A stretch of DNA of 64,000 nt. Source: Erysipelothrix piscisicarius (GTDB taxonomy: Bacteria; Bacillota_I; Bacilli_A; Erysipelotrichales; Erysipelotrichaceae). The stretch spans positions 1 to 64,000 of the forward strand of contig NZ_CP034234.1 in assembly GCF_003931795.1 (NCBI RefSeq). Reading direction: 5' to 3'. The position numbers and the translations under genes are program-made. The notes beneath the pieces were generated by a model, which ran no database searches, was not told the origin of the DNA, and worked only from the letters and a program-made list of their open reading frames with translations. Positions 7,837 through 62,883 of this stretch are shown piece after piece. The stretch's first letter is position 1; the number at the start of each line of letters is the position of its first letter.

Positions 7837-9420
7837 ATGATCTGGTTTTTCCTTTGCTAATTCAAAGGACACAATTTTAGAACCATTGGTTGTTATGATT
7901 ACATGAGTTCCTTTAGTCAAGAATGCAAGTTCATCATTTAGAATAAGATTTGCTTGATAAATGGCTTCATCCCCTTCAAGACGAATGAGGTAATGCGTAT
8001 TGCCATCAATGATAACTTGTTTAACATCTGAAACGACCCCGGTTTTCTCCACAATTTCTTCTGGAACAATACCTACTTGATTTCCCATAACATTGAGATA
8101 ATTCTTCTCAGATAGTTGATAGGTGTCGCCTACGGCTGACTTGGTGTAATCTTGGTAATTAACCATTGAGAAACCACGAACTACACTCGATGTATCTTTG
8201 AGACATCACATATGTAGAATCCTCCAACGTTTTGTAGAATTGGTGTTGGTGTATATCCTTTTCTTGATCGAACCAACTGAAGTCATTTCAGCCGCTGTAA
8301 TGGAAACCCCTGGTAAATCCATTTGAAGCGTCTCCAGTTCGCTTATTCATAAATAAGAGCCCTGTTGTTGAACTTGAATCTAATTTTATGGGACGTATTC
8401 CAGTATATAGATCTCATCGTCGATACTTACATAGTTATAAGAACCTTCTTGCTGGTCTACAGCCATCACACCTTGTTGTTGCATGAAAGAATTAAAATAA
8501 CTCCCTTTAAAGTGAAATGATCTTTCGCATGCGATAACATCATATCCGTTGGATAAACGGAATCCACCCACTCTGGGATTTCATTGAGTTCATAACGTGC
8601 AGTTTCTCCAGTGACCGCATCCACAACAATCACAGCATCCATGTCTTTAGCGCCCCAAATCCCAACACGTTTTGTAATCGATTGAACAATCCAATAGGGA
8701 TGTCCTGCATCGTCAATTTCAAAGTTCCAATCATCAAGATAACTAAATTTATGGTGTAAAGCCACATGACGACGTAGATCATATTGTAATGGTGCACCTG
8801 GGTAATATTTAATGGGTGCGGGTAACGTTACAATCTCTGACTTCGCATTCATATTTCCGTCCCCTGTAGTTACAAGAACATAGTAGGGCACACCACTTGA
8901 GAAGTTCGTATATTTTTTAAAAGTATCCGCATAAACAAACGGTGCAACACGCGCCATTTTGCCTTGATAATTTATTTGGGTAAATTCATTGGTATTAATA
9001 TCAAAACGCGATGATACCTCACTGAGTTCTCCCATTTTTTTCTCTGCCGATAACAACGCTGAGTCCTTATCTACATAAGAAACTTCAATATTATGATTTT
9101 CACCATAGAGATCTTTAAACTCTACTGGTTTTACTTGCCCCAATACATTTGCATAGCGTTTCGCATTAATCATACGTGATGATGTCACACTACCCACTAA
9201 GAAAACAATGGCAAAGATCCCTACGATGATGCCGAAGGTATTAAAGAACTTTTATAGTTTTCACGGTCGATAAACAGTATTCAGCAATCACTAAGATAAA
9301 TGTACTTAAATAGAGCATCGAGCCGATATCCATGTAGTGATATGTATTTCCAAACCAGATATCAAGTAGGATAAATACAATCACAACGATACCGATTTGT
9401 ATTGATTTGCGTTTATTCAT
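7834..9420 (-). pseudogene. Large membrane-anchored extracellular protein of unknown function, frameshifted
   Basis: About 528 codons. GGAGG lies 6 nt before the ATG at 9418-9420. The N-terminus (MNKRKSIQIGIVVIVFILLDIWFGN) and the next 80 residues contain three hydrophobic helices; the rest is a soluble, probably extracellular part. The longest intact block (8466-9197) carries SSRFDINTNEF, VPYYVLVTTGDG and DAVIVVDAVTGE, which read as repeated beta-strand units. The C-terminal 110 residues (7834-8166) contain a small beta-rich domain. I do not recognise a named family. At least four indels break the gene. It converges on the MATE gene and shares its terminator. Confidence 0.55.
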
Positions 9421-11003: not shown

Positions 11004-12246
11004 GAACTGACCTAGTTCCTTGGGACTAAAGAAAACCAAGTTAGGATGAAGTTAACCGATAATTTACGGGAGATTGATATCCTAGCTTTTCTTGTATTCG
11101 ATTTTCATTGTAATATTTTAAATAGTTTATCACAGTTTGTGATACAATTTCAGTAGAACCTTTAGTTCTGGGTTTAATTCGAATGTTTCACTTTAGCGAG
11201 GCATGAAACGATTCGATAGAGCATTATCAGCGGTGTACCCTTACGGGACATACCATGGTAATGCTTTTATTTTACTTTGAGTTGATACTCTTTTGATGTA
11301 TAGACACCCCTTGATCAGAATGAAGAATACATGGCTGAACGATATCCGGAAGTTGATTTAATGTATCAACCACACATTCTAGGTTTTGTCTGTCACTCAA
11401 TGTAGACGCAATAATCTCACCATTATATAAATCCATGATCGTAGATAAATAGAGCATCTTATGGCCATAAGGGATGTAAGTGATATCTGTCACCAATTCT
11501 CTAGAGGAAGTAGTGATTTAAAGTCGCGATTAATGATATTGGGCATAATGATCTTCGGATTTTGTTTTTTTTCGATTTGACCTTAACACGGCATTGACAT
11601 TGGTGTTTCTGCATTATCTTTTGAACAGTGTTCTTATTGATAATTCTTTCTTTCGAATTAATGCAGTTATTTTCGATATCCATAACGAAATTTATTTTCT
11701 TTACAAAGTTCAATTACTAATGCTTCATTGACAGAATAATTATTAGACTCTAGTTGCTCTTTTAGTCCAACGGTAATACGTTGACTTAGGTACCCCAAAA
11801 GATTCAAGATATCTTTAAGAGATACAGTGTTGCGATACTCTTCAACGAGCTTGATGATTATTTCAGGAACCACATCCTTCTTTCCAAATACTTTTTAATA
11901 GTTCAATTTGTTGCTCCAAAGATTTAATTCTAAGTCTTTGTGTTTCTTCGACCGTGTCTCCTTCAGGCCCTTCCAAAAGTATATTGCTTGCCTACAGGTT
12001 GAGAAAATCGATAGTGTTCACCATTTCGATACCATCTCCACCATGTTTTGACTTGTGTTACATTTTTATTCCAAGTTCAGTCTGAATAAACCTGCTTGAG
12101 TAGCTGCCAATTTCATTTCTATAACTTTCATCTTTGTCTCATAGCTATGCATAGTTCGTGTTCATATAAAACCTCCTATATTGAACTATTTTACAATAAT
12201 TTCATACAAGAGGTTTTTCTTAGTCCCACGGAACTAGGTCAGTTCC
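11004..12246 (-). mobile_element. IS3-family (IS150-group-like) element, copy 1, degraded
   Basis: 1,243 bp bounded by inverted ends GAACTGACCTAGTTCC and its partner GGAACTAGGTCAGTTCC; the first G of the left end is missing relative to copy 2. It is nearly the same sequence as 51511-52780 but 27 bp shorter, almost entirely through one- or two-base losses in short runs. It lies between the nitroreductase stop and the last codons of the LPXTG adhesin, whose reading frame terminates inside the element's right end. Confidence 0.9.
11050..12165 (-). pseudogene. IS3-family transposase (OrfA and OrfB), copy 1, non-functional
   Basis: The same two-gene transposase as in copy 2, split into many fragments. 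Recognisable segments: an OrfA part near 11900-12160, EIIIKLVEEYRNTVSLKDILNLLGY, and the DDE core LVTDITYIPYGHKMLYLSTIMDLYNGEII followed by CILHSDQG. The catalytic Glu block near 11200 is out of frame. No protein could be made from this copy as written. Confidence 0.85.
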
Positions 12247-24161: not shown

Positions 24162-24979
24162 CTAATCATCATCTTCATTAAACGCTTCAAGAAAATGGTG
24201 TGATGTTTCATCATCAAAATACGAGATTACCTTGTTTAAATTTACCTGCTCAACACTTCGGAAAATATTTGCCTCAATAAAAGGATTAATCTTCTTATAT
24301 TCTTGAATCCATGACTTAATTTCTATGCGCTTACTCTTTGACTCATGATCGAAGCTATGCTCTGTAAAGCGACAGGCGCATTGAAGAAAGGTGAGTCCCG
24401 TATAATGAACCCAACGTAAAATCGCTGCTTCACGGACCAAATAAAGCGGTCTGATTAATTCAATATGTGGATGACTTGTGGACTTTAGACGGGGCATCAT
24501 CGTTCCAACCTGACCCCATAAAACATATTCATCAGAATTGTCTCAATCACATCATCATAGTGATGTCCGAGTGCAATTTTATTACATCCTAAAGACTCCG
24601 CAAATTCATAAAGATGTCCGCGACGCATCCGTGCACACAAATAGCAGGGATTCTTTTCAATTGTATCCACATAGTCAAAAATCTTAGCGTCAAAGATTGT
24701 GACATCCAAGCCCAGTAAATCTGCATTTTTCTTTATTTGTTCACGATTAAAAGGTGCATAGCCGGGATCCATCACCAAATACTTAACCGTAAATGGAACC
24801 TTGGAATGTTGAACGAGAATACTAAAGCATAATGCCATGAGCATGCTGTCCTTTCCTCCTGAAATACACACGCCAATACAATCCCCTTCTTGAATTAAAT
24901 CATAGTTCGAGATTCCCTTCATAAATGGCGTCCAAATATCTTTACGATACGTTTTTAAAATGATATTTTGATGCGTCAT
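24162..24979 (-). pseudogene. ttcA: TtcA/TilS-like tRNA thiolation ATPase, one frameshift
   Basis: PP-loop ATPase resembling TtcA, which makes 2-thiocytidine in tRNA. The upstream part (24497-24979) has CISGGKDSMLMAL (PP-loop), PCYLCARMRRG (first Cys pair) and ALGHHYDDVIETILMNMFYG. The downstream part (24162-24500) has the second Cys pair in FLQCACRFTEHS. The frame breaks at 24500: TATGGGGTCAGG lacks one G that would restore FYGGQVGTMMPRL, the conserved TtcA junction. The two pieces overlap by ATGA, which mimics coupled genes, but the break in mid-domain argues for a single gene. Either a true one-base deletion or a sequence error in a G run. Confidence 0.8.
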
Positions 24980-30573: not shown

Positions 30574-30596
30574 CGGTAATAGTTTTAATGATTCAA

Positions 30597-31477
30597 TCAT
30601 GGATAAAACTGCGGTTGTTCCTCTTCGGTTAGGTACCAAACTTCAGGATCCACATAGATGATATGGCCGTTTTGGTAAGCACGCGTTGCTTTCACAAAGG
30701 CATTGTCCATCAAGACTTCCGCATTTCCTTCACCACCGGTTCCCCGGGAGCGATCCATTACAAGGATATAATCAGGGTTAAGGTCTTGGATTTGCTCGAA
30801 GGAGAGGGTAGAACCATGGGTTGAGACATCAAATTGTTTGGATACGGGCGTAAATCCGAAATCACGGTACACATGATCATATCGGCTTTCAGGTCCGAAG
30901 GCTTTAATCTCATTACCATTGGCCATTAAGAAAAGCAAGGTGCCCGCTTGTTTTTGTGCTTCATTTTTGAATGCATCTACCTGACTTTCTAAATCAGTCA
31001 TCAAGCCTTCAAGATCACGTCCTGGGTAGAGTTGATGAAGTATCTCAGTATTTGCCTTCATCGATGCGATTAAGCCATCGGGATGGCTGTCTCTTCCCAT
31101 ATAGATGGTAGGGGCAATTTTTGAGAGGGCTTCGTAATGTTTGGCACTGCGAGATAACGATAAGATCCGGGTGTGCTGCGCTTATGCGTTCATAATTGGG
31201 CTCAAAAAAGCGTACCAATATCGGTAAGGTTTGGGTCCAACTTTGACTTAAGCGTTGTCGTTAAGGAGGCAGTAGGCACCCCGGAAATTGGTAAATCATA
31301 GGATTCCATCATATCAATGATTCCCATATCAAAGACAAATACGTTCTGTGGGTTTTCGTTAACCTCGGTTGTTCCTAATTTATGTGTAATGGAAAGGGTG
31401 GTATCTTTTGTTTTTTGAGGTTTACATACCGTCACGAAGATGAGGGCAAAGCACACGATTAATGTTTTAAAGTTCAT
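30597..31477 (-). pseudogene. Siderophore ABC transporter substrate-binding lipoprotein, two frameshifts
   Basis: FatB/CeuE-type iron-siderophore binding protein tethered outside the membrane. N-terminus MNFKTLIVCFALIFVTVCKPQ has a poor lipobox but a Cys in the right place. HKLGTTEVNENPQNVFVFDMG opens the periplasmic-binding fold, and the C-terminal half (30597-31100) carries AFGPESRYDHVYRDFGFTPV, typical of catecholate-siderophore binders. The frame is lost at a T6 run near 31202 and regained after a missing base near 31145; removing one T and adding one base joins LFEPNYERISAAHPDLIVIS to the rest. About 293 residues when joined. Last gene of its operon. Confidence 0.85.
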
Positions 31478-42650: not shown

Positions 42651-43334
42651 GCAAGTCACCTCTACTAATTTCTTCCAACGATCCTTTTTTTAGATATAAA
42701 ATTTTATCTGCTTGCTTTGCGATTTCTTGGGAGTGCGTCACAACAATAACGCATTTTGGTGATCATGGGCAAGGTGTTGGAAGATATTAATAATTTCGGC
42801 TTCCATTTCTTCGTCCAAGTTTCCAGTAGGCTCATCCGCTAGAATTACATCCACATTGGTTGATAAGGCACGCGCGATGGCAACCCGCTGTTGTTCTCCT
42901 CCAGAAAGCATGGTGACAAGACGATCGGCCTTACTTCGGGTAATGCCAATAAAATCAAGCAGATTGTATGCAACTTCTTTTGTCTCTTCGGGAATTTGAT
43001 TGGTGGTGATGTTCATGGCTACAAGTACATTTTCAACAGCCGTTAAATGAGGAATTAGATTATAACTTTGAAAGATAATCCCAATTTGATTGCGCCGATA
43101 TTCCGCAAGCCCAATCTCAGAGATGTTTTTATTTTTATAATAAACAGCACCTTCACGCGGTGTATCCAGTGCACTCAGTAGGGATAAAAAGGTCGTTTTT
43201 CCAGACCCGGATTGGCCCAAAATGGCATAAAAGGTACCGGCTTCAAAACTGGTATTCACATCCCGCAAAATGAAGCGACGTTGATCGCCATCTTGGTAAA
43301 AATAATTAATGTTTTTGGTTTCTAATAGTTTCAT
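42643..43334 (-). pseudogene. ABC transporter ATP-binding protein (LolD/MacB type), one frameshift
   Basis: About 230 residues. Walker A GQSGSGKTT (about 41), Q-loop GIIFQSYNLIPHLTAVENV, signature [16 protein letters not shown] and Walker [13 protein letters not shown]. The frame stops at 42738 after HDHQNALLL, but the next frame reads VIVVTHSQEIAKQADKILYL, which holds the H-loop, and ends at 42643. One extra A in the run near 42760 (HQK-CVIVVTHS) restores it. Restored, it overlaps the PASTA gene start by 8 nt. Energises the permease encoded upstream. Confidence 0.88.
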
Positions 43335-51510: not shown

Positions 51511-51550
51511 GGAACTGACCTAGTTCCTTGGGACTAAAGAAAAACCCAAG

Positions 51551-52411
51551 TTAGGATGAAGTTAACCGATAATTTACGGGAGATTGATATCCTAGCTTTT
51601 CTTGTATTCGATTTTCATTGTAATATTTTAAATAGTTTATCACAGTTTGTGATACAATTTCAGTAGAACCCTTTAGTTCTGGGTTTAATTCGAATGTTTC
51701 ACACTTTAGCGAGGCATGAAACGATTCGATAGGAGCATTATCAGCGGGTGTCCCCTTACGGGACATACTCATGGTAATGCTTTTATTTTTTACTTTGAGT
51801 TGATACTCTTTTGATGTATAGACACTCCCTTGATCAGAATGAAGAATACATGGCTGAACGATATCCGGAAGTTGATTTAATGTATCAACCACACATTCTG
51901 GGTTTTGTCTGTCACTCAATGTAGACGCAATAATCTCACCATTATATAAATCCATGATCGTAGATAAATAGAGCATCTTATGGCCATAAGGGATGTAAGT
52001 GATATCTGTCACCAATTTCTCTAGAGGACGTAGTGATTTAAAGTCGCGATTAATGATATTGGGCATAATGATCTTCGGATTTTGTTTTTCGATACCGTTT
52101 GACCTTAACACGGCATTGACATTGGTGTTTCTGCATTATCTTTTGAACAGTGTTCTTATTGATAATTCTTTCTTTCGAATTAATGCAGTTATTTTCGATA
52201 TCCATAACGAAATTTATTTTCTTTACAAAGTTCAATTACTAATCCTTCATTGACAGAATAATTATTAGACTCTAGTTGCTCTTTTAGTCCAACGGTAATA
52301 CGTTGACTTAGGTACCCAAAAGATTCAAGATATCTTTAAGAGATACAGTGTTGCGATACTCTTCAACGAGCTTGATGATTATTTCAGGAACCACATCCTT
52401 TCTCTTTCAAA
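51551..52411 (-). pseudogene. IS3-family transposase OrfB, copy 2, frame broken
   Basis: DDE integrase. The C-terminal 186 residues are intact: LVTDITYIPYGHK (first Asp), CILHSDQGSVYTSKEY (second Asp), APIESFHASLKCETF (Glu), then ENRIQEKLGYQSPVNYR. Upstream, FRYGYRK and the next block are in different frames, and a second break lies near 52095. The first break is shared with copy 1, so it is old or part of the element; the second is not. Confidence 0.8.
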
Positions 52412-52694
52412 TACTTTTTAATAGTTCAATTTGTTGCTCCAAAGATTTAATTCTAAGTCTTTGTGTTTCTTCGACCGTGTCTCCTTCAGGCCCTTTTCCA
52501 AAAGTATATTGCTTGCCTACAGGTTGAGAAAATCGATAGTGTTCACCATTTCGATACCATCTCCACCATGTTTTGACTTGTGTTACATTTTTTATTCCAA
52601 GTTCAGTCTGAATAAACCTGCTTGAGTAGCCTGCCAATTTCATTTCTATAACTTTCATCTTTGTCTCATAGCTATGCATAGTTCGTGTTCCCAT
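52407..52694 (-). CDS. IS3-family transposase OrfA, copy 2
   Basis: 95-residue DNA-binding subunit. MHSYETKMKVIEMKLAGYSSRFIQTELGIKNVTQVKTWWRWY is the HTH; the C-terminus TVEETQRLRIKSLEQQIELL is the leucine-zipper part. The gene ends in TTAAAAAGT, a possible slippery site for the -1 shift that joins OrfA and OrfB in IS3 elements. AGGAGG precedes the start. Confidence 0.85.
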   Translation of the reverse strand: MGTRTMHSYETKMKVIEMKLAGYSSRFIQTELGIKNVTQVKTWWRWYRNGEHYRFSQPVGKQYTFGKGPEGDTVEETQRLRIKSLEQQIELLKSI

Positions 52695-52828
52695 ATAAAA
52701 ACCTCCTATATTGAACTATTTTACAATAATTCTCATACAAGAGGTTTTTTTCTTTAGTCCCACGGAACTAGGTCAGTTCCAAACATGGATAATGGTTTTT
52801 CATTTGTATACATCGAAACGTACCGTAA

Positions 52829-56698: not shown

Positions 56699-58795
56699 CT
56701 AACGTTTAACGTGCATAATGCGCATTGCATTCAGAACTGCAAGAATGCTTACACCAACATCCGCAATAACTGCCATCCACATTTTCGCAAGCCCTAAACT
56801 TCCTAGGACTAATACTAATATTTTGATAACCATAATGAGAATAATATTCATATACGTAATGCGTTGCGTTTTCTTTGCAATATCAATCGTTTCTAGAATT
56901 TGATGCGGGTTGTCATTGACCAACACAACATCAGAATATTCAATCGCAAGATCATTTCCACCCGCACCCATTGAAAATCCGACATCACTCAATCCCAACA
57001 CCGCAGCATCATTCATACCATCACCTGCATACGCTAAAGTTGCATTGCGTTGTGCTTTTATTTTTGAAAATTGAGAAACTTTATCTTCTGGAAGTAATTC
57101 CCCATATGCAACATCAATCCCCATCTCTTTCGCAACGCGATCCACAACGCTTTGACGGTCTCCACTTAACATGACGCTGAAAATATGACGTTTGTGTAAA
57201 TCTTCAATTAACTGCTTACTGTCATCACGAAGTGTATCATCCAATTCTATGCCACCAATTAATACATCATTTAAAACAACCAGAACGGATGTCATATCAG
57301 TTTCATAAAGACTGACATCATACCCTTCTTCTTTGACATTTTTAAGCGATCCTACAAAGACCGGATCACCATCCCAAAGGCCTCGAATCCCCTTACCAAA
57401 AACTTCCTTAACATCCGAAACACGATCTAAATTCACCGGTTTGTCGTATGCACCCACAATCGCTTTCCCAATCGGGTGGTTTGAATACGATTCTAAATGT
57501 GCTGCAATTTCTAAAACATCATCACGACCTTGAACGTCTGTAACTACAAGTTCCCCTTTTGTAAGAGTTCCGGTCTTATCAAAGACCACACCATCGACGG
57601 CTGCAAGAGCTTCAATCGATTCGCCACCTTTAATTAAGATACCTGATTTACTTGCTCGTCCGATACCCGCAAAATAACCAAGTGGAATGGACAAGACTAA
57701 GGCACAAGGACAACTAATGACTAAGAATACAAGACCCCGATAAATCCCATCATATGCAACGCCAGTTGTAATCGCCACATAAAGCATAATCACAAGGGCA
57801 AGTACAAATACAATTGGAGTATAAATACGCGAGAATTTCGTCATAAAGATTTCTGTTTTCGCTTTATTATCGGAAGATGCTTCAATCAGTGTCAACATCT
57901 TCGAGATTGTGGAATTTGAATATTCTTTCGTTACTTCCACTTCAATTGGAGATGAAAGGTTAATGGACCCCGAGAGAATCGTATCCCCTTCAAAAATATT
58001 TTCGGGCATCGATTCACCCGTGAGTGACGACATATCAAATGTTGTATTTCCTGCAACGACACGACCGTCTAGAGGAACCTGATCTGAAGGATTAATGCGA
58101 ATGCGATCCCCAATCTGAACCGTTTCACACGCGACGATTTCCTCAACACTATCTACAAGTTTACGTGCAAACTGAGGACGTTTATTCAATAATGCTTTAA
58201 TAGAATCACGGGAATCATCAACGGCTTTATGTTGGAAATATTCCCCAACACTATAGAAAACCATAACACCCAAAGCTTCTCCGTATTCCCCAATGGCCAA
58301 TGCACCAAGTGTCGCTACCGACATTAAGACATTTTCATCAAAAAATTGTTTTCGTGATAAACCACTTACAAATGCTTTGAGTACTGGCCATCCAACGACA
58401 AAATACACCGCAATGGTTAAAACGTTTAACCAACTTGCATCGATAAAGAGACGTAAAAGAATTATGAGTACCCCCAGCCAAATAAATGGTGACATGCCCG
58501 CATCCTCATGATCGTGATCATGGCCTTTATGGTCATCGTGGGGATGTTCTTGAAGGCCCTCTTCTAAGGTGACACCGATGTTCTCAATACTCTGGATGGA
58601 ATTGGTTACATTCTTTACAAACGCATCATCCACGTCAATACCTTCTTTAATTTTGAGCTTTGCTTTTCCCAAAACTACATCAACACGAGCATCTTCGATA
58701 TAGTCTTGCTTTTGAAGTTCGCGTTCAATTTTACCGGCACAATCCGCACAATGTAACCCTTCCAATTCAAATTTAACTTCTTTAATTGTTTTCAT
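56699..58795 (-). CDS. cadA: Zinc/cadmium/lead-exporting P-type ATPase (CadA/ZntA type)
   Basis: 698-residue P1B-2 ATPase exporting divalent soft metals. N-terminal metal-binding domain with GLHCADCAGKIE (Cys pair), then a His-rich stretch (HPHDDHKGHDHDHED, about 83-97). Membrane part with the CPC motif ISCPCALVLSIPLG, phosphorylation DKTGTLTKG, SNHPIGKA, and hinge AGDGMNDAAVLG. CPC together with a later conserved Asp fits zinc, cadmium and lead rather than copper. Four nt after the ArsR-type regulator, so the pair is an inducible resistance unit. Confidence 0.95.
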   Translation of the reverse strand: MKTIKEVKFELEGLHCADCAGKIERELQKQDYIEDARVDVVLGKAKLKIKEGIDVDDAFVKNVTNSIQSIENIGVTLEEGLQEHPHDDHKGHDHDHEDAGMSPFIWLGVLIILLRLFIDASWLNVLTIAVYFVVGWPVLKAFVSGLSRKQFFDENVLMSVATLGALAIGEYGEALGVMVFYSVGEYFQHKAVDDSRDSIKALLNKRPQFARKLVDSVEEIVACETVQIGDRIRINPSDQVPLDGRVVAGNTTFDMSSLTGESMPENIFEGDTILSGSINLSSPIEVEVTKEYSNSTISKMLTLIEASSDNKAKTEIFMTKFSRIYTPIVFVLALVIMLYVAITTGVAYDGIYRGLVFLVISCPCALVLSIPLGYFAGIGRASKSGILIKGGESIEALAAVDGVVFDKTGTLTKGELVVTDVQGRDDVLEIAAHLESYSNHPIGKAIVGAYDKPVNLDRVSDVKEVFGKGIRGLWDGDPVFVGSLKNVKEEGYDVSLYETDMTSVLVVLNDVLIGGIELDDTLRDDSKQLIEDLHKRHIFSVMLSGDRQSVVDRVAKEMGIDVAYGELLPEDKVSQFSKIKAQRNATLAYAGDGMNDAAVLGLSDVGFSMGAGGNDLAIEYSDVVLVNDNPHQILETIDIAKKTQRITYMNIILIMVIKILVLVLGSLGLAKMWMAVIADVGVSILAVLNAMRIMHVKR

Positions 58796-58798
58796 GAT

Positions 58799-59134
58799 TT
58801 ACTCCTTTACGTGATCCAGTGCTTGACTGAAGATTTGCATTACGTGACTATCCGCCAAGTGATAGTATGCATTTTTCCCAACTTTTGAACTTCTTACAAG
58901 ATTCATCTTTCGAAGTGAAGCCAACTGATGTGATACTGCAGATTGGGTCATCCCCAAGATTGCCGCTAAGTCATCAACACAAACCGTTTCTTGAGACAAG
59001 ATGGTAAAGATACGCAAACGTGTCGGGTCTGCAAACATTTTACACAACATCGATAAATCTGTATATTCTTCTTCCGCTAAGAGTGTTTCTTGAAGTGCTT
59101 TAATTTCGTGGTGTTCCAATTCTTTTTGATCCAT
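58799..59134 (-). CDS. ArsR/SmtB-family metal-sensing repressor (CzrA/CadC-like)
   Basis: 111 residues. Winged HTH 25-95: MFADPTRLRIFTILSQETVCVDDLAAILGMTQSAVSHQLASLRKMNLV. The alpha-3 ETVCVDDLA region has one Cys. The alpha-5 metal site is clear: D-S-H followed ten residues later by H and then E (ADSHVMQIFSQALDHVKE), i.e. the DxHx10HxxE pattern of zinc/cobalt-sensing CzrA/SmtB. It represses its own operon with the P-type ATPase until zinc or a similar ion binds. Confidence 0.93.
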   Translation of the reverse strand: MDQKELEHHEIKALQETLLAEEEYTDLSMLCKMFADPTRLRIFTILSQETVCVDDLAAILGMTQSAVSHQLASLRKMNLVRSSKVGKNAYYHLADSHVMQIFSQALDHVKE

Positions 59135-59257: not shown

Positions 59258-60538
59258 TTAAACTGTTTCTAAGTCACTTAAGCGCTTAATAATATCCAAA
59301 TCATGAATGCGTTTCTTACGTGTCGCATAATGTTTGATTACACCTAAATCTTTCCCATTTAATAATTGAACGTGATGCGTTTCCGCAAGATCTCGTGCTT
59401 CTGGAGTATAGTCCGCATTGGAAAGAATTACCCGGGCATCAACGCGATCCCAGTAGGGTGATGACAAGCCATCTATAATGGATTGTTGGTCCACTCGAGA
59501 GGTCATGTATAAAATGCGAATATAGTAGGTAAACCGATCCGCTCGGTAAAGAACCATCTCGGATGGATTCACTTCCTGGTCACGTCCCAATACGGTATAA
59601 CAAAACTTACTTAACAAATCTTTGGTATACTGATAAAACTGTAAATCCGTTTTAATATGAGCACATGCAAGATTTAAAGATTGATCGCGTTCCTTTTCTT
59701 CTTCGAAGGCTTGAAACGTATCTGCATATTTTAATTGATAATCGTTAAAGTACGCTTCATAGTTTCCCAGTTGTCTTAAAATCCAAATAATATCTTTTGA
59801 TTTAGTGCTTTCGATTCCTACCCCTCTTCGAATGCATGCATGCATAATCGGACGCGTAATGCTTTGGTGTGCCTGCTCAGGATGTTTTGCATAGTGTTCC
59901 AACCAATGACAAATGGTGTCGTGAAGGCTCTTATCTGGATCTACAACCACATCATTAAAAATTGAACGGCCGTCTTGATCATATTTACTATGGTAAACAT
60001 CATTCACGAGATACCGGTATTCAAATCGATCACGAATCCCAGGCAAGGGATCCAGTGCATACGTTTCAACCGTCTCCTGATACACCCCGACAACGGAATC
60101 CGTTTTAAAACATGCTTCTGAAAGCATTTTATACAATGGATGACGTGTGTCTAAGCTTACTGCGATGCGCTCAAAGAATAAAAGTTTTGAAATCGCAACG
60201 GCACTTGCAATTGTCACAAAGACAGTATTAACCCGTGTTGTACGGAAAAAATTCGGTGCTCCTTCTGGCAATTCAATCGTTTCATTGAGTAAATAATCAC
60301 TTAAACGATGAATTTCTAAGAAACGGTTATCAAACATACTCTTTGGACCGTTAAAGTTATAACGATCATTTTCGATTTCCTTGTTTAATCGATTCCAATC
60401 TGAAGGATCTAACATCCATTGGGTCAAGGTAATTAAATAGCGAACATCCAACCCTTTTAAAAAATGTTCATACGAATCAAAGTTTAAACTGTGACCAAAA
60501 ACATGTTGAATGCATGTATCCATACGCAAGGGCTTCAC
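59258..60538 (-). CDS. Cytoplasmic protein with Mrr-like C-terminus; probably the 3' part of a split gene
   Basis: 426 residues as drawn from a GTG at 60536-60538, which lacks a ribosome site. Residues 1-330 are helical and unfamiliar. The last about 100 residues contain VDARVILSNADYTPEARDLAETHHVQLLNGKDLGVI, matching the end of the Mrr-type restriction-endonuclease fold (VT---FT--A--LA-----LI-G--L). The preceding strand that should hold catalytic Q/E-x-K reads FTYYIRILYM, so the nuclease site looks lost. The frame is open upstream through the G9 tract, and one added G joins it to the membrane protein gene. Confidence 0.7.
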   Translation of the reverse strand: MKPLRMDTCIQHVFGHSLNFDSYEHFLKGLDVRYLITLTQWMLDPSDWNRLNKEIENDRYNFNGPKSMFDNRFLEIHRLSDYLLNETIELPEGAPNFFRTTRVNTVFVTIASAVAISKLLFFERIAVSLDTRHPLYKMLSEACFKTDSVVGVYQETVETYALDPLPGIRDRFEYRYLVNDVYHSKYDQDGRSIFNDVVVDPDKSLHDTICHWLEHYAKHPEQAHQSITRPIMHACIRRGVGIESTKSKDIIWILRQLGNYEAYFNDYQLKYADTFQAFEEEKERDQSLNLACAHIKTDLQFYQYTKDLLSKFCYTVLGRDQEVNPSEMVLYRADRFTYYIRILYMTSRVDQQSIIDGLSSPYWDRVDARVILSNADYTPEARDLAETHHVQLLNGKDLGVIKHYATRKKRIHDLDIIKRLSDLETV

Positions 60539-61074
60539 AAGCTGTGCTTGGTCCTCACCCCCCCCCGTTGCACATCAAGAATTTTTGAAATCTGACACAT
60601 CGTTTGATATGACTGGGTTTCAAGGGCATTACGAAATGCTTGTTCTTCAGTAAAATGTGTTTGTTGTTTAACAGGTCGTTTAGGACGAACACACTTTCCT
60701 GGCCAACGCCACCAACTTAAAATCCCCAGTCCAATACTCCAGACAATAACCAGTCCCATATAGATGTAATAGAGATCAAAAACACGCAAAACAGGATAGG
60801 ATAAAATCCACATAATTACGGATAAAGACGCTAACGCAAGTAAAATTTGTCCTGGAATGCACATACAAATTTCATATTTTTGACCAAGTTTGGTTAATTC
60901 ACCGCTGATCATAAATCCTAAGATCATCAGCATCAGTCCCAATCCATGCATTTGAATTGATATTTCAAGTTTTCCTGGTGCGAGGAAATAAAAACATGCA
61001 CCTAAAGCTAGAATTGCTCCGGCCAAAAACACAATAAAGCCAAGAAGCATCTGAAACCTCTTATAAATCTTCAT
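60535..61074 (-). CDS. Four-helix membrane protein, probably the 5' part of a split gene
   Basis: 179 residues from the ATG at 61072-61074 (GAGGGG site 7 nt upstream). Helices at about 9-31, 44-61, 74-92 and 98-120 (MLLGFIVFLAGAILALGACF, GLGLMLMILGFMISGEL, ILLALASLSVIMWIL, YYIYMGLVIVWSIGLGIL), then a basic cytoplasmic tail. The last in-frame codons are read through a run of nine G and end 31 nt later at TGA (DVQRGGVRTKHSL). With ten G the frame continues into the next gene to give a 605-residue protein. Family unknown. Confidence 0.7.
   Translation of the reverse strand: MKIYKRFQMLLGFIVFLAGAILALGACFYFLAPGKLEISIQMHGLGLMLMILGFMISGELTKLGQKYEICMCIPGQILLALASLSVIMWILSYPVLRVFDLYYIYMGLVIVWSIGLGILSWWRWPGKCVRPKRPVKQQTHFTEEQAFRNALETQSYQTMCQISKILDVQRGGVRTKHSL
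60558..60566 (-). repeat. G9 homopolymer tract at the junction of two reading frames
   Basis: Nine consecutive C on the plus strand (G on the coding strand), by far the longest G/C run in the window. CAAC-G10-TGAGG would be open throughout; G9 terminates. Such tracts are classic slipped-strand phase-variation switches and also frequent sites of sequencing error. Confidence 0.9.
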
Positions 61075-61130: not shown

Positions 61131-61153
61131 AAACAAGCAATCATGCTTGTTTC
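61131..61153 (-). terminator. Terminator after the HAD gene
   Basis: AAACAAGC / GCTTGTTT stem. Confidence 0.75.
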
Positions 61154-61154
61154 G

Positions 61155-61922
61155 CTATTTTTTATTAAAAAGTGTGGAGAGTGCGTCACCAACGCTAGAA
61201 TAATGTGCTACACCCATTTCTTTTACCAAGGCTTCTCCCGTAGAAATTACAAACCCCTGAAATGCTTTAAGCATTGGAACATCATTATAACTATCCCCCA
61301 TCGTGTAGATGGGCCCTTTGTAGTCATAGTAATCGATTATCTTTTGAAGTCCGGTTGCTTTTGAAATCCCGTGAGCTCCAATATCCACAGCACAAACATT
61401 CTGACTCGCCTCAACATGCAACGCACCATAATGTTGATTAATATGATTGGTAAGTGCTAAGGCTTGCCTTGGTGATGATGTCACAACATACAATGCCTGA
61501 ACACCACGTTCTTGTTTTAAAACATCTAAATCGGTAAGCGGGATATTGGGGACCATAGAATGGGCGGATGCATCCAACACAACGCGACTTAACCGGTACC
61601 CATCATTGACCCCATAGAAAGAAACCTCAAAGGCTTTAAAATCATCAATCATGGCATCCACCACAGATTGATCTAAATCACTGATAAAAATTTCTTGGTG
61701 ATCATGGGTTAACACGACACCCCCATTAATCCCGACAATAAAATCAACCGGAATATTGTAGGCTTCAATCTCAGTCTGAATGGAATGAATCGTACGGCCT
61801 GTGACAATTCCAAACTTATTTCCCAATGCTCGAAATGTCCTAATGGCCTCAAGATCGTCGTGACTTACCGTTGAATTTCGAAAGAGCGTGCCGTCATAAT
61901 CCGATGCGAAAATCTGAATCAC
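61155..61922 (-). CDS. HAD superfamily (Cof-type) sugar/nucleotide phosphatase
   Basis: 255 residues. Motif I ASDYDGTLFRNS (Asp 8 and 10), motif II VTGRTI, motif III Lys near KATGLQKIIDYY, motif IV YTMGDSYNDVPML. The large C2-type cap between motifs II and III is the Cof/YbjI type, which acts on phosphorylated sugars, flavin or PLP compounds. The gene overlaps the thioredoxin-reductase-like gene upstream by 4 nt (ATGA). Confidence 0.9.
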   Translation of the reverse strand: MIQIFASDYDGTLFRNSTVSHDDLEAIRTFRALGNKFGIVTGRTIHSIQTEIEAYNIPVDFIVGINGGVVLTHDHQEIFISDLDQSVVDAMIDDFKAFEVSFYGVNDGYRLSRVVLDASAHSMVPNIPLTDLDVLKQERGVQALYVVTSSPRQALALTNHINQHYGALHVEASQNVCAVDIGAHGISKATGLQKIIDYYDYKGPIYTMGDSYNDVPMLKAFQGFVISTGEALVKEMGVAHYSSVGDALSTLFNKK

Positions 61923-62797
61923 GTCGTCAAACCCCGTTTAATCCGACGGATATAACTGATCATGTTCATCCCGGCAATACAACCATCCCCTACAGCTTTC
62001 GCAATTTGTTGGACCCCAAACGTACAATCTCCTGCGGCATACAACCCTGGCATATTCGTTTCCATATTCTCATTAACAAGAATCCGACCATTTTCAACAC
62101 CTAGACCTAATTTATTTGCGAGATCGGTGCTGGTAGCAGAACCAATGGCAACAAAGATACCATCCAATTCTAAGATACCTGATTCCATTTCCACGCCCGA
62201 AACCTTTTCCTCACCAACCACGGTCTTTACTTTTTCTTCGAGAATAATACAACGGTCATCAAAAGTTCCTGTGATTGGCTCACCATTGGTCAATACATAG
62301 ACTTTCGATGCTACCTCTACAAGTTCCGCTGCTTCATGAGCTGCATACTCAGCACTTCCAACCACGGCAACCGTTTTACCGCGATAGAAAAATGCATCGC
62401 ATACTGCACAATATGAAACACCACGTCCATTATAATTACGGATTTTTCGAATTCTTGGAATGTTTCGATGAGACCCCGTCGCTAACAACACACTGATGGC
62501 TTTATACGTTTCATGAATCGTTTCAACAACATAAGTTGCTCCATCAAAACCAATGGACAACACTTCATCCGTCACAACTTCAATGCCCAACTCAATGGCT
62601 TGATCAATCCCACGTTGAACCAATTCAACACCACCAATTGAGGTGAATCCGTAGAAATTATCCACATCCCGTGCCGTTTCACTTGCGCCTAAATCTTTAC
62701 CAATAACCGTTGTGTTTACATTCCCACGTTTAAGATATACGGCAGCTTGAATCCCCGCAGGTCCCTTGCCAATTATTAATGCATCCGTTTCTTTCAT
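61919..62797 (-). CDS. Thioredoxin-reductase-like FAD/NAD(P) oxidoreductase
   Basis: 292 residues from the ATG at 62795-62797 (AAGGAG 7 nt before). FAD site IGKGPAGIQAAVYLKRG, redox pair GVSYCAVCDAFFYRGK (CAVC), NAD(P) site VAVVGSAEYAAHEAAELV, and FAD contact GLYAAGDCTFGVQQI. Low-molecular-weight thioredoxin reductase layout. The N-terminal glycine motif is GKGPAG, not GxGxxG strictly, and the NAD(P) site has GSAEYA in place of GGGDSA, so cofactor use may differ from classical TrxB. No thioredoxin gene is adjacent. Confidence 0.87.
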   Translation of the reverse strand: MKETDALIIGKGPAGIQAAVYLKRGNVNTTVIGKDLGASETARDVDNFYGFTSIGGVELVQRGIDQAIELGIEVVTDEVLSIGFDGATYVVETIHETYKAISVLLATGSHRNIPRIRKIRNYNGRGVSYCAVCDAFFYRGKTVAVVGSAEYAAHEAAELVEVASKVYVLTNGEPITGTFDDRCIILEEKVKTVVGEEKVSGVEMESGILELDGIFVAIGSATSTDLANKLGLGVENGRILVNENMETNMPGLYAAGDCTFGVQQIAKAVGDGCIAGMNMISYIRRIKRGLTT

Positions 62798-62883
62798 AGA
62801 TATCTCCTTCAAACTCTTTCAATTATATGATATATGATTTTCGCATTCAAGTTTGATGTTTTTGAAAAAAATTAAAGTTTTTA

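Follow-up and report, generated by a model that had tools for sequence, protein, structure and literature searches.

Mrr_cat (PF04471) is the catalytic domain of type IV restriction endonucleases. In inactive restriction-endonuclease-like domains, such as NA-iREase1 (PF22722) and, by fold, Rpb5, the nuclease fold is kept without its catalytic residues and presumably serves binding. Contingency loci, among them inlA of Listeria monocytogenes with its poly-A run (PMC2831843) and the ESX-1 tracts of Mycobacterium tuberculosis (PMC11898584), carry a long single-base run within one gene, and changes in the length of the run shift the reading frame. Genes can also appear broken at such runs in the deposited sequence, as long-read assemblies fragment genes through homopolymer indels (Kastor, PMC12007338).

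The locus described here lies within the first 64,000 nucleotides of contig NZ_CP034234.1 of Erysipelothrix piscisicarius (assembly GCF_003931795.1); this whole stretch was analysed and is called the window. Nine consecutive Gs (G9) of the minus strand, read directly in the sequence, lie between two open frames (Table 1) and divide a membrane part from an Mrr-like part, just as the preliminary description had it. The upstream frame, starting from an ATG at 61074 or a TTG at 61140, passes through the run and ends in a TGA 20 nt past it; the 31 nt given earlier fits only if counted from the start of the tract. Beyond the tract, the downstream frame has no stop for 1.3 kb. This part had been thought to have no ribosome site of its own, but there is a candidate GTG start (60538) that overlaps the upstream TGA as GTGA, with a GAGG 14 nt before it, and the downstream part could possibly be made through translational coupling there.

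Table 1. Features of the locus, its neighbours and the controls used for assembly quality (positions are those of the window).
Feature	Positions	Strand	Basis or remark
G9 tract, junction of both frames	60558-60566	-	Direct reading; genome's sole run of at least nine Gs; absent in three sister species
Upstream frame, four-helix membrane part, cut by TGA at 60535-60537	60535-61074	-	ORF and translation
Downstream frame, cytosolic part with degenerate Mrr domain at its end	59258-60557	-	ORF and translation
GTGA overlap of upstream stop and possible downstream start	60535-60538	-	Sequence; absent in sister species
Mrr_cat-like stretch, catalytic residues replaced	59345-59536	-	Pfam PF04471, alignments, fold
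HAD-type hydrolase, upstream neighbour, kept in all four species	61155-61922	-	ORF, synteny
Thioredoxin-reductase-like protein, conserved neighbour	61919-62812	-	ORF, synteny
ArsR-type regulator, downstream neighbour	58799-59134	-	ORF, synteny
Metal P-type ATPase, downstream neighbour	56699-58795	-	ORF, synteny
Control: IS element copy for indel load	51511-52760	+	One of ~20 copies
Control: frameshift in ABC-type ATPase at short A run, unique sequence	42741-42756	-	Split matches to both sister genomes

The gene is present in 4 of 13 Erysipelothrix genomes. In the three other carriers (G001, G005, and E. tonsillarum DSM 14972) it is one unbroken frame of 604 codons at the same syntenic locus, which agrees well with the length of about 605 residues predicted earlier for the joined protein. 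The upstream 170 residues are 96% identical to those of G001 and G005 and 85% identical to those of E. tonsillarum, and the downstream 432 residues (173-604 of the intact orthologues) are 76-85% identical. Gene order is common to all four: thioredoxin-reductase-like protein, HAD hydrolase, membrane-Mrr gene, ArsR regulator, and metal P-type ATPase, the neighbours' functions being named by resemblance only. No full-length member of the family was found outside Erysipelothrix in 196 genomes of the order and 392 of the phylum, where the weak matches were to the Mrr domain only.

Because three sister species carry a single open frame at the same syntenic locus, it is strongly supported by comparison that the two frames belong to one gene. 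The preliminary description had proposed this, naming orthologues that are always separate as the finding that would speak against it; all three sisters have the two parts fused in one frame. It had also looked for fused orthologues with ten Gs, and here the fusion was found but the tract was not: in the alignment of the three sister species, seven mixed bases stand at the position of the nine Gs. Since none of the sisters carries a G tract, the run is specific to the lineage of this genome, in a variable linker between the membrane and cytosolic parts.

The half of the gene behind the frameshift is under strong constraint, with no extra or long-standing decay. Decay of long standing is contradicted by the low dN/dS of this half (about 0.05-0.08, pairwise where computable, with synonymous sites near saturation) together with the lack of excess changes confined to the window copy, which has 20 such residues in the C-terminal half, vs. 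15 and 16 along two sister lineages.

At its C-terminus, the protein resembles Mrr_cat in both profile and fold. Against the curated PF04471 cut-off of 21 bits, the orthologues score 25-27 bits in the genome search and 21.5 with hmmscan, and the window copy 16.7-19.5, just below it. A model of the C-terminal part (pLDDT 77.5) matches proteins of the PD-(D/E)XK fold (AF1548, Z 11.9; AspBHI, 10.2; MspJI, 9.7); its input alignment held Mrr relatives, so that the fold match is not fully independent of the sequence match. The fold search was made with this model only, as the full-length one (pLDDT 37.5) was unusable. Alignment with active Mrr domains shows that all four species have other residues at the positions of the catalytic E, D, and Q-x-K, with R-I-L in place of the last. 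These results support an Mrr-type PD-(D/E)XK domain that is predicted to be catalytically dead. The four-helix membrane part that had been described earlier is upheld, and so, by Pfam and fold, is its Mrr-type C-terminus; the loss, first noted for the catalytic Lys, extends over the whole active site in all four species. Because the active site is lost and the fold retained, the intact protein would most likely be a membrane-tethered sensor or scaffold, binding a ligand or nucleic acid without cutting it.

A 611-residue paralogue in E. tonsillarum has a similar layout and retains the catalytic residues. It adjoins a gene on the same strand for a 300-residue membrane protein, and the two genes may work together in defence as an uncharacterised pair. 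A second dead Mrr family of the clade is a small Mrr_cat-like protein kept in all four species (in this genome at G000:C1:1671183-1671494), also with its catalytic residues replaced; its open frame is longer here, with a C-terminal hydrophobic helix.

The tract is the sole run of at least nine Gs in the 1.72-Mb genome, where the maximal G runs counted were 54 G6, two G7, one G8, and one G9. A first-order composition model predicts about 1.4 runs of at least nine Gs per genome, vs. the one seen, and as many G8 words as in the window arise in 8% of its dinucleotide shuffles, so a single G9 is no statistical anomaly, and the tract alone is not beyond chance. Runs of at least six Gs are rarer than the same model predicts (58 seen vs. 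about 170 expected).

Assembly quality was judged from stretches of the genome. The copies of one IS3-like element are a built-in gauge of assembly error in repeats: 20 copies in this genome contain 87 deletion and 19 insertion events (106) in 25.0 kb, vs. none in the 16.4 kb of the 13 copies in the sister genome G001. A second copy in the window is at 11004-12246, and some 18 further copies are elsewhere in the genome. The rate obtained from them probably overstates the error in unique sequence, because short-read polishing works poorly in repeats. In unique sequence, the A run in the ABC-type ATPase gene (Table 1) is one base short of the length expected from the protein of the sisters. Comparison with the sisters reveals further frameshifted window genes, for a binding protein (30.6-31.2 kb), for a TtcA-like protein (24.5 kb), and others in the first 10 kb, and these likely share the same origin. 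The extents of the split genes, relative to two sister genomes, are 42738-43334, 30574-31477, 24174-24976, and 8217-9420. With so many homopolymer indels in the assembly, the caveat of sequencing error made in the preliminary description gains weight. Deletions are the commonest error, and an undercall implies a longer tract, so a miscount of this kind would leave a slippage-prone run.

The G9 itself may be real, because 38 of the 39 gene-internal G6-G8 runs in the whole genome are in frame, with no other G9 for comparison, and because the neighbouring genes are intact (nine others compared between 52.8 and 63.8 kb). Base calling therefore looks sound both at long G runs and in this part of the window. 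The sole broken run of these 39, a G6 at G000:C1:1475446-1475451, coincides with a frame break and is a possible miscall.

The reading that we favour, and consider quite probable, is of one core gene in which the G9 is a miscount or the product of incidental slippage and not an evolved switch. This gene, seen in one clade of Erysipelothrix and nowhere else, encodes a four-helix membrane protein with a dead Mrr (PD-(D/E)XK) domain as its cytosolic C-terminus. Subject to the reliability of the assembly, the G run has grown in the variable linker in this lineage. With the nine Gs of the deposited sequence, translation ends just past the membrane part, and the cytosolic part is left unjoined. The tract might well have been miscounted in an assembly so rich in indels, and it could instead have slipped incidentally in the sequenced culture; the two are about equally likely. 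If the former is true, some of the pseudogenes counted in this assembly may be products of sequencing error.

It is unlikely that the tract is an evolved phase-variable element, as first proposed, kept by selection so that slipped-strand changes in its length reversibly join and unjoin the cytosolic domain and the membrane anchor. A change in tract length would shift the frame of one gene, as both sides are open in different frames and the orthologues have a single frame; the run is the longest G run in the genome and the only one of its kind, it lies in a gene, and the second frame is fully open and constrained. However, the tract is absent in all three of the sisters, whose genes are fused without it, and the gene belongs to a conserved core operon whose position is fixed. 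One state is visible, a single tract length having been seen with one genome per species compared. A contig scan for conspecific sequences returned E. tonsillarum only, a search of viral contigs with the tract flanks gave no match, and no report on the gene or tract in Erysipelothrix was found in the literature. Contingency loci can be recognized by runs that are longer or commoner than composition predicts, or that are kept in relatives; here the number of runs is as composition predicts, the sisters have mixed bases, and the assembly is error-prone.

A point in favour of a switch comes from G001, the genome with no indels in its IS copies, where the only G9 is 3 nt ahead of the ATG of a different Mrr protein, likewise of the membrane type. 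This hints at a pattern and stands against the reading preferred here; it is also a post hoc coincidence in a genome with three Mrr_cat genes. The protein that follows the G001 run (G001:C1:810955-810963) has 375 residues and an intact Mrr_cat domain (PF04471, 71 bits), with an XRE-type regulator upstream, and the run is possibly a ribosome-site contingency tract. It is rather improbable that poly-G tracts in Erysipelothrix are, more broadly, contingency switches on membrane-linked Mrr-family proteins, toggling DNA-sensing or defence from the coding linker of a dead-Mrr protein here and, in G001, from a site just ahead of the start codon of an active one. The idea that G tracts generally go with Mrr genes was tested and discarded: at 28 further Mrr_cat loci of the order, the flanks read contain no run of at least seven Gs, which also counts against a switch at this locus. 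The remaining long G runs in Erysipelothrix (a G8 in this genome, G000, and G9-G10 in G009 and G012) were not seen to split any gene.

It is very unlikely that the loss is fixed, through a genuine and stable frameshift that is turning the gene into a pseudogene in this strain. The out-of-frame state could be real, given how well G6-G8 runs are called, and a conspecific fish isolate, E. piscisicarius 15TAL0474, has been reported with 286 pseudogenes, the figures for two further isolates of E. piscisicarius being 21 and 16 (PMC7873064). However, the downstream half has neither stop codons nor excess amino-acid changes, and the reported pseudogene number may itself stem from indel errors; if 15TAL0474 is the source of the present assembly, the claim of genome decay for the fish isolate may partly reflect sequencing error. 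Two coupled products made by restart at the GTG on the stop, or a frame change during expression through polymerase or ribosome slippage on the G run, are just as improbable: the GTGA overlap and the GAGG upstream of it would suit the first, but overlap and tract are both absent in the relatives, which make one protein, and one report (PMC5574713) describes transcription insertions at homopolymers mainly in A and T runs.

One core gene with a miscounted or incidentally slipped tract thus remains the preferred reading, and its product can be set beside the described systems. It is similar to the Mrr_cat domain of type IV restriction endonucleases in the near-cut-off profile scores of its orthologues and in a fold like that of AF1548, AspBHI, and MspJI, but it differs in its replaced catalytic residues, in its fusion to four membrane helices, and in lying in no defence island. 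With NA-iREase1 and Rpb5 it shares a nuclease fold without catalytic residues; it has no match to PF22722, however, and no NACHT or polymerase context. The tract is similar to those of inlA and the ESX-1 genes in being a long single-base run in one gene whose length would set the frame, but no length variation was seen, it is not kept in the sisters, and it lies mid-gene at a domain junction in an error-prone assembly. Should its length vary in culture, Erysipelothrix would have a poly-G switch that acts where two domains meet. The likeness to long-read indel errors (Kastor, PMC12007338) is one of indel pattern, with homopolymer-biased single-base indels, a deletion bias, and split genes that are whole in relatives; in contrast to such errors, the G6-G8 runs and the surrounding genes here are mostly right.
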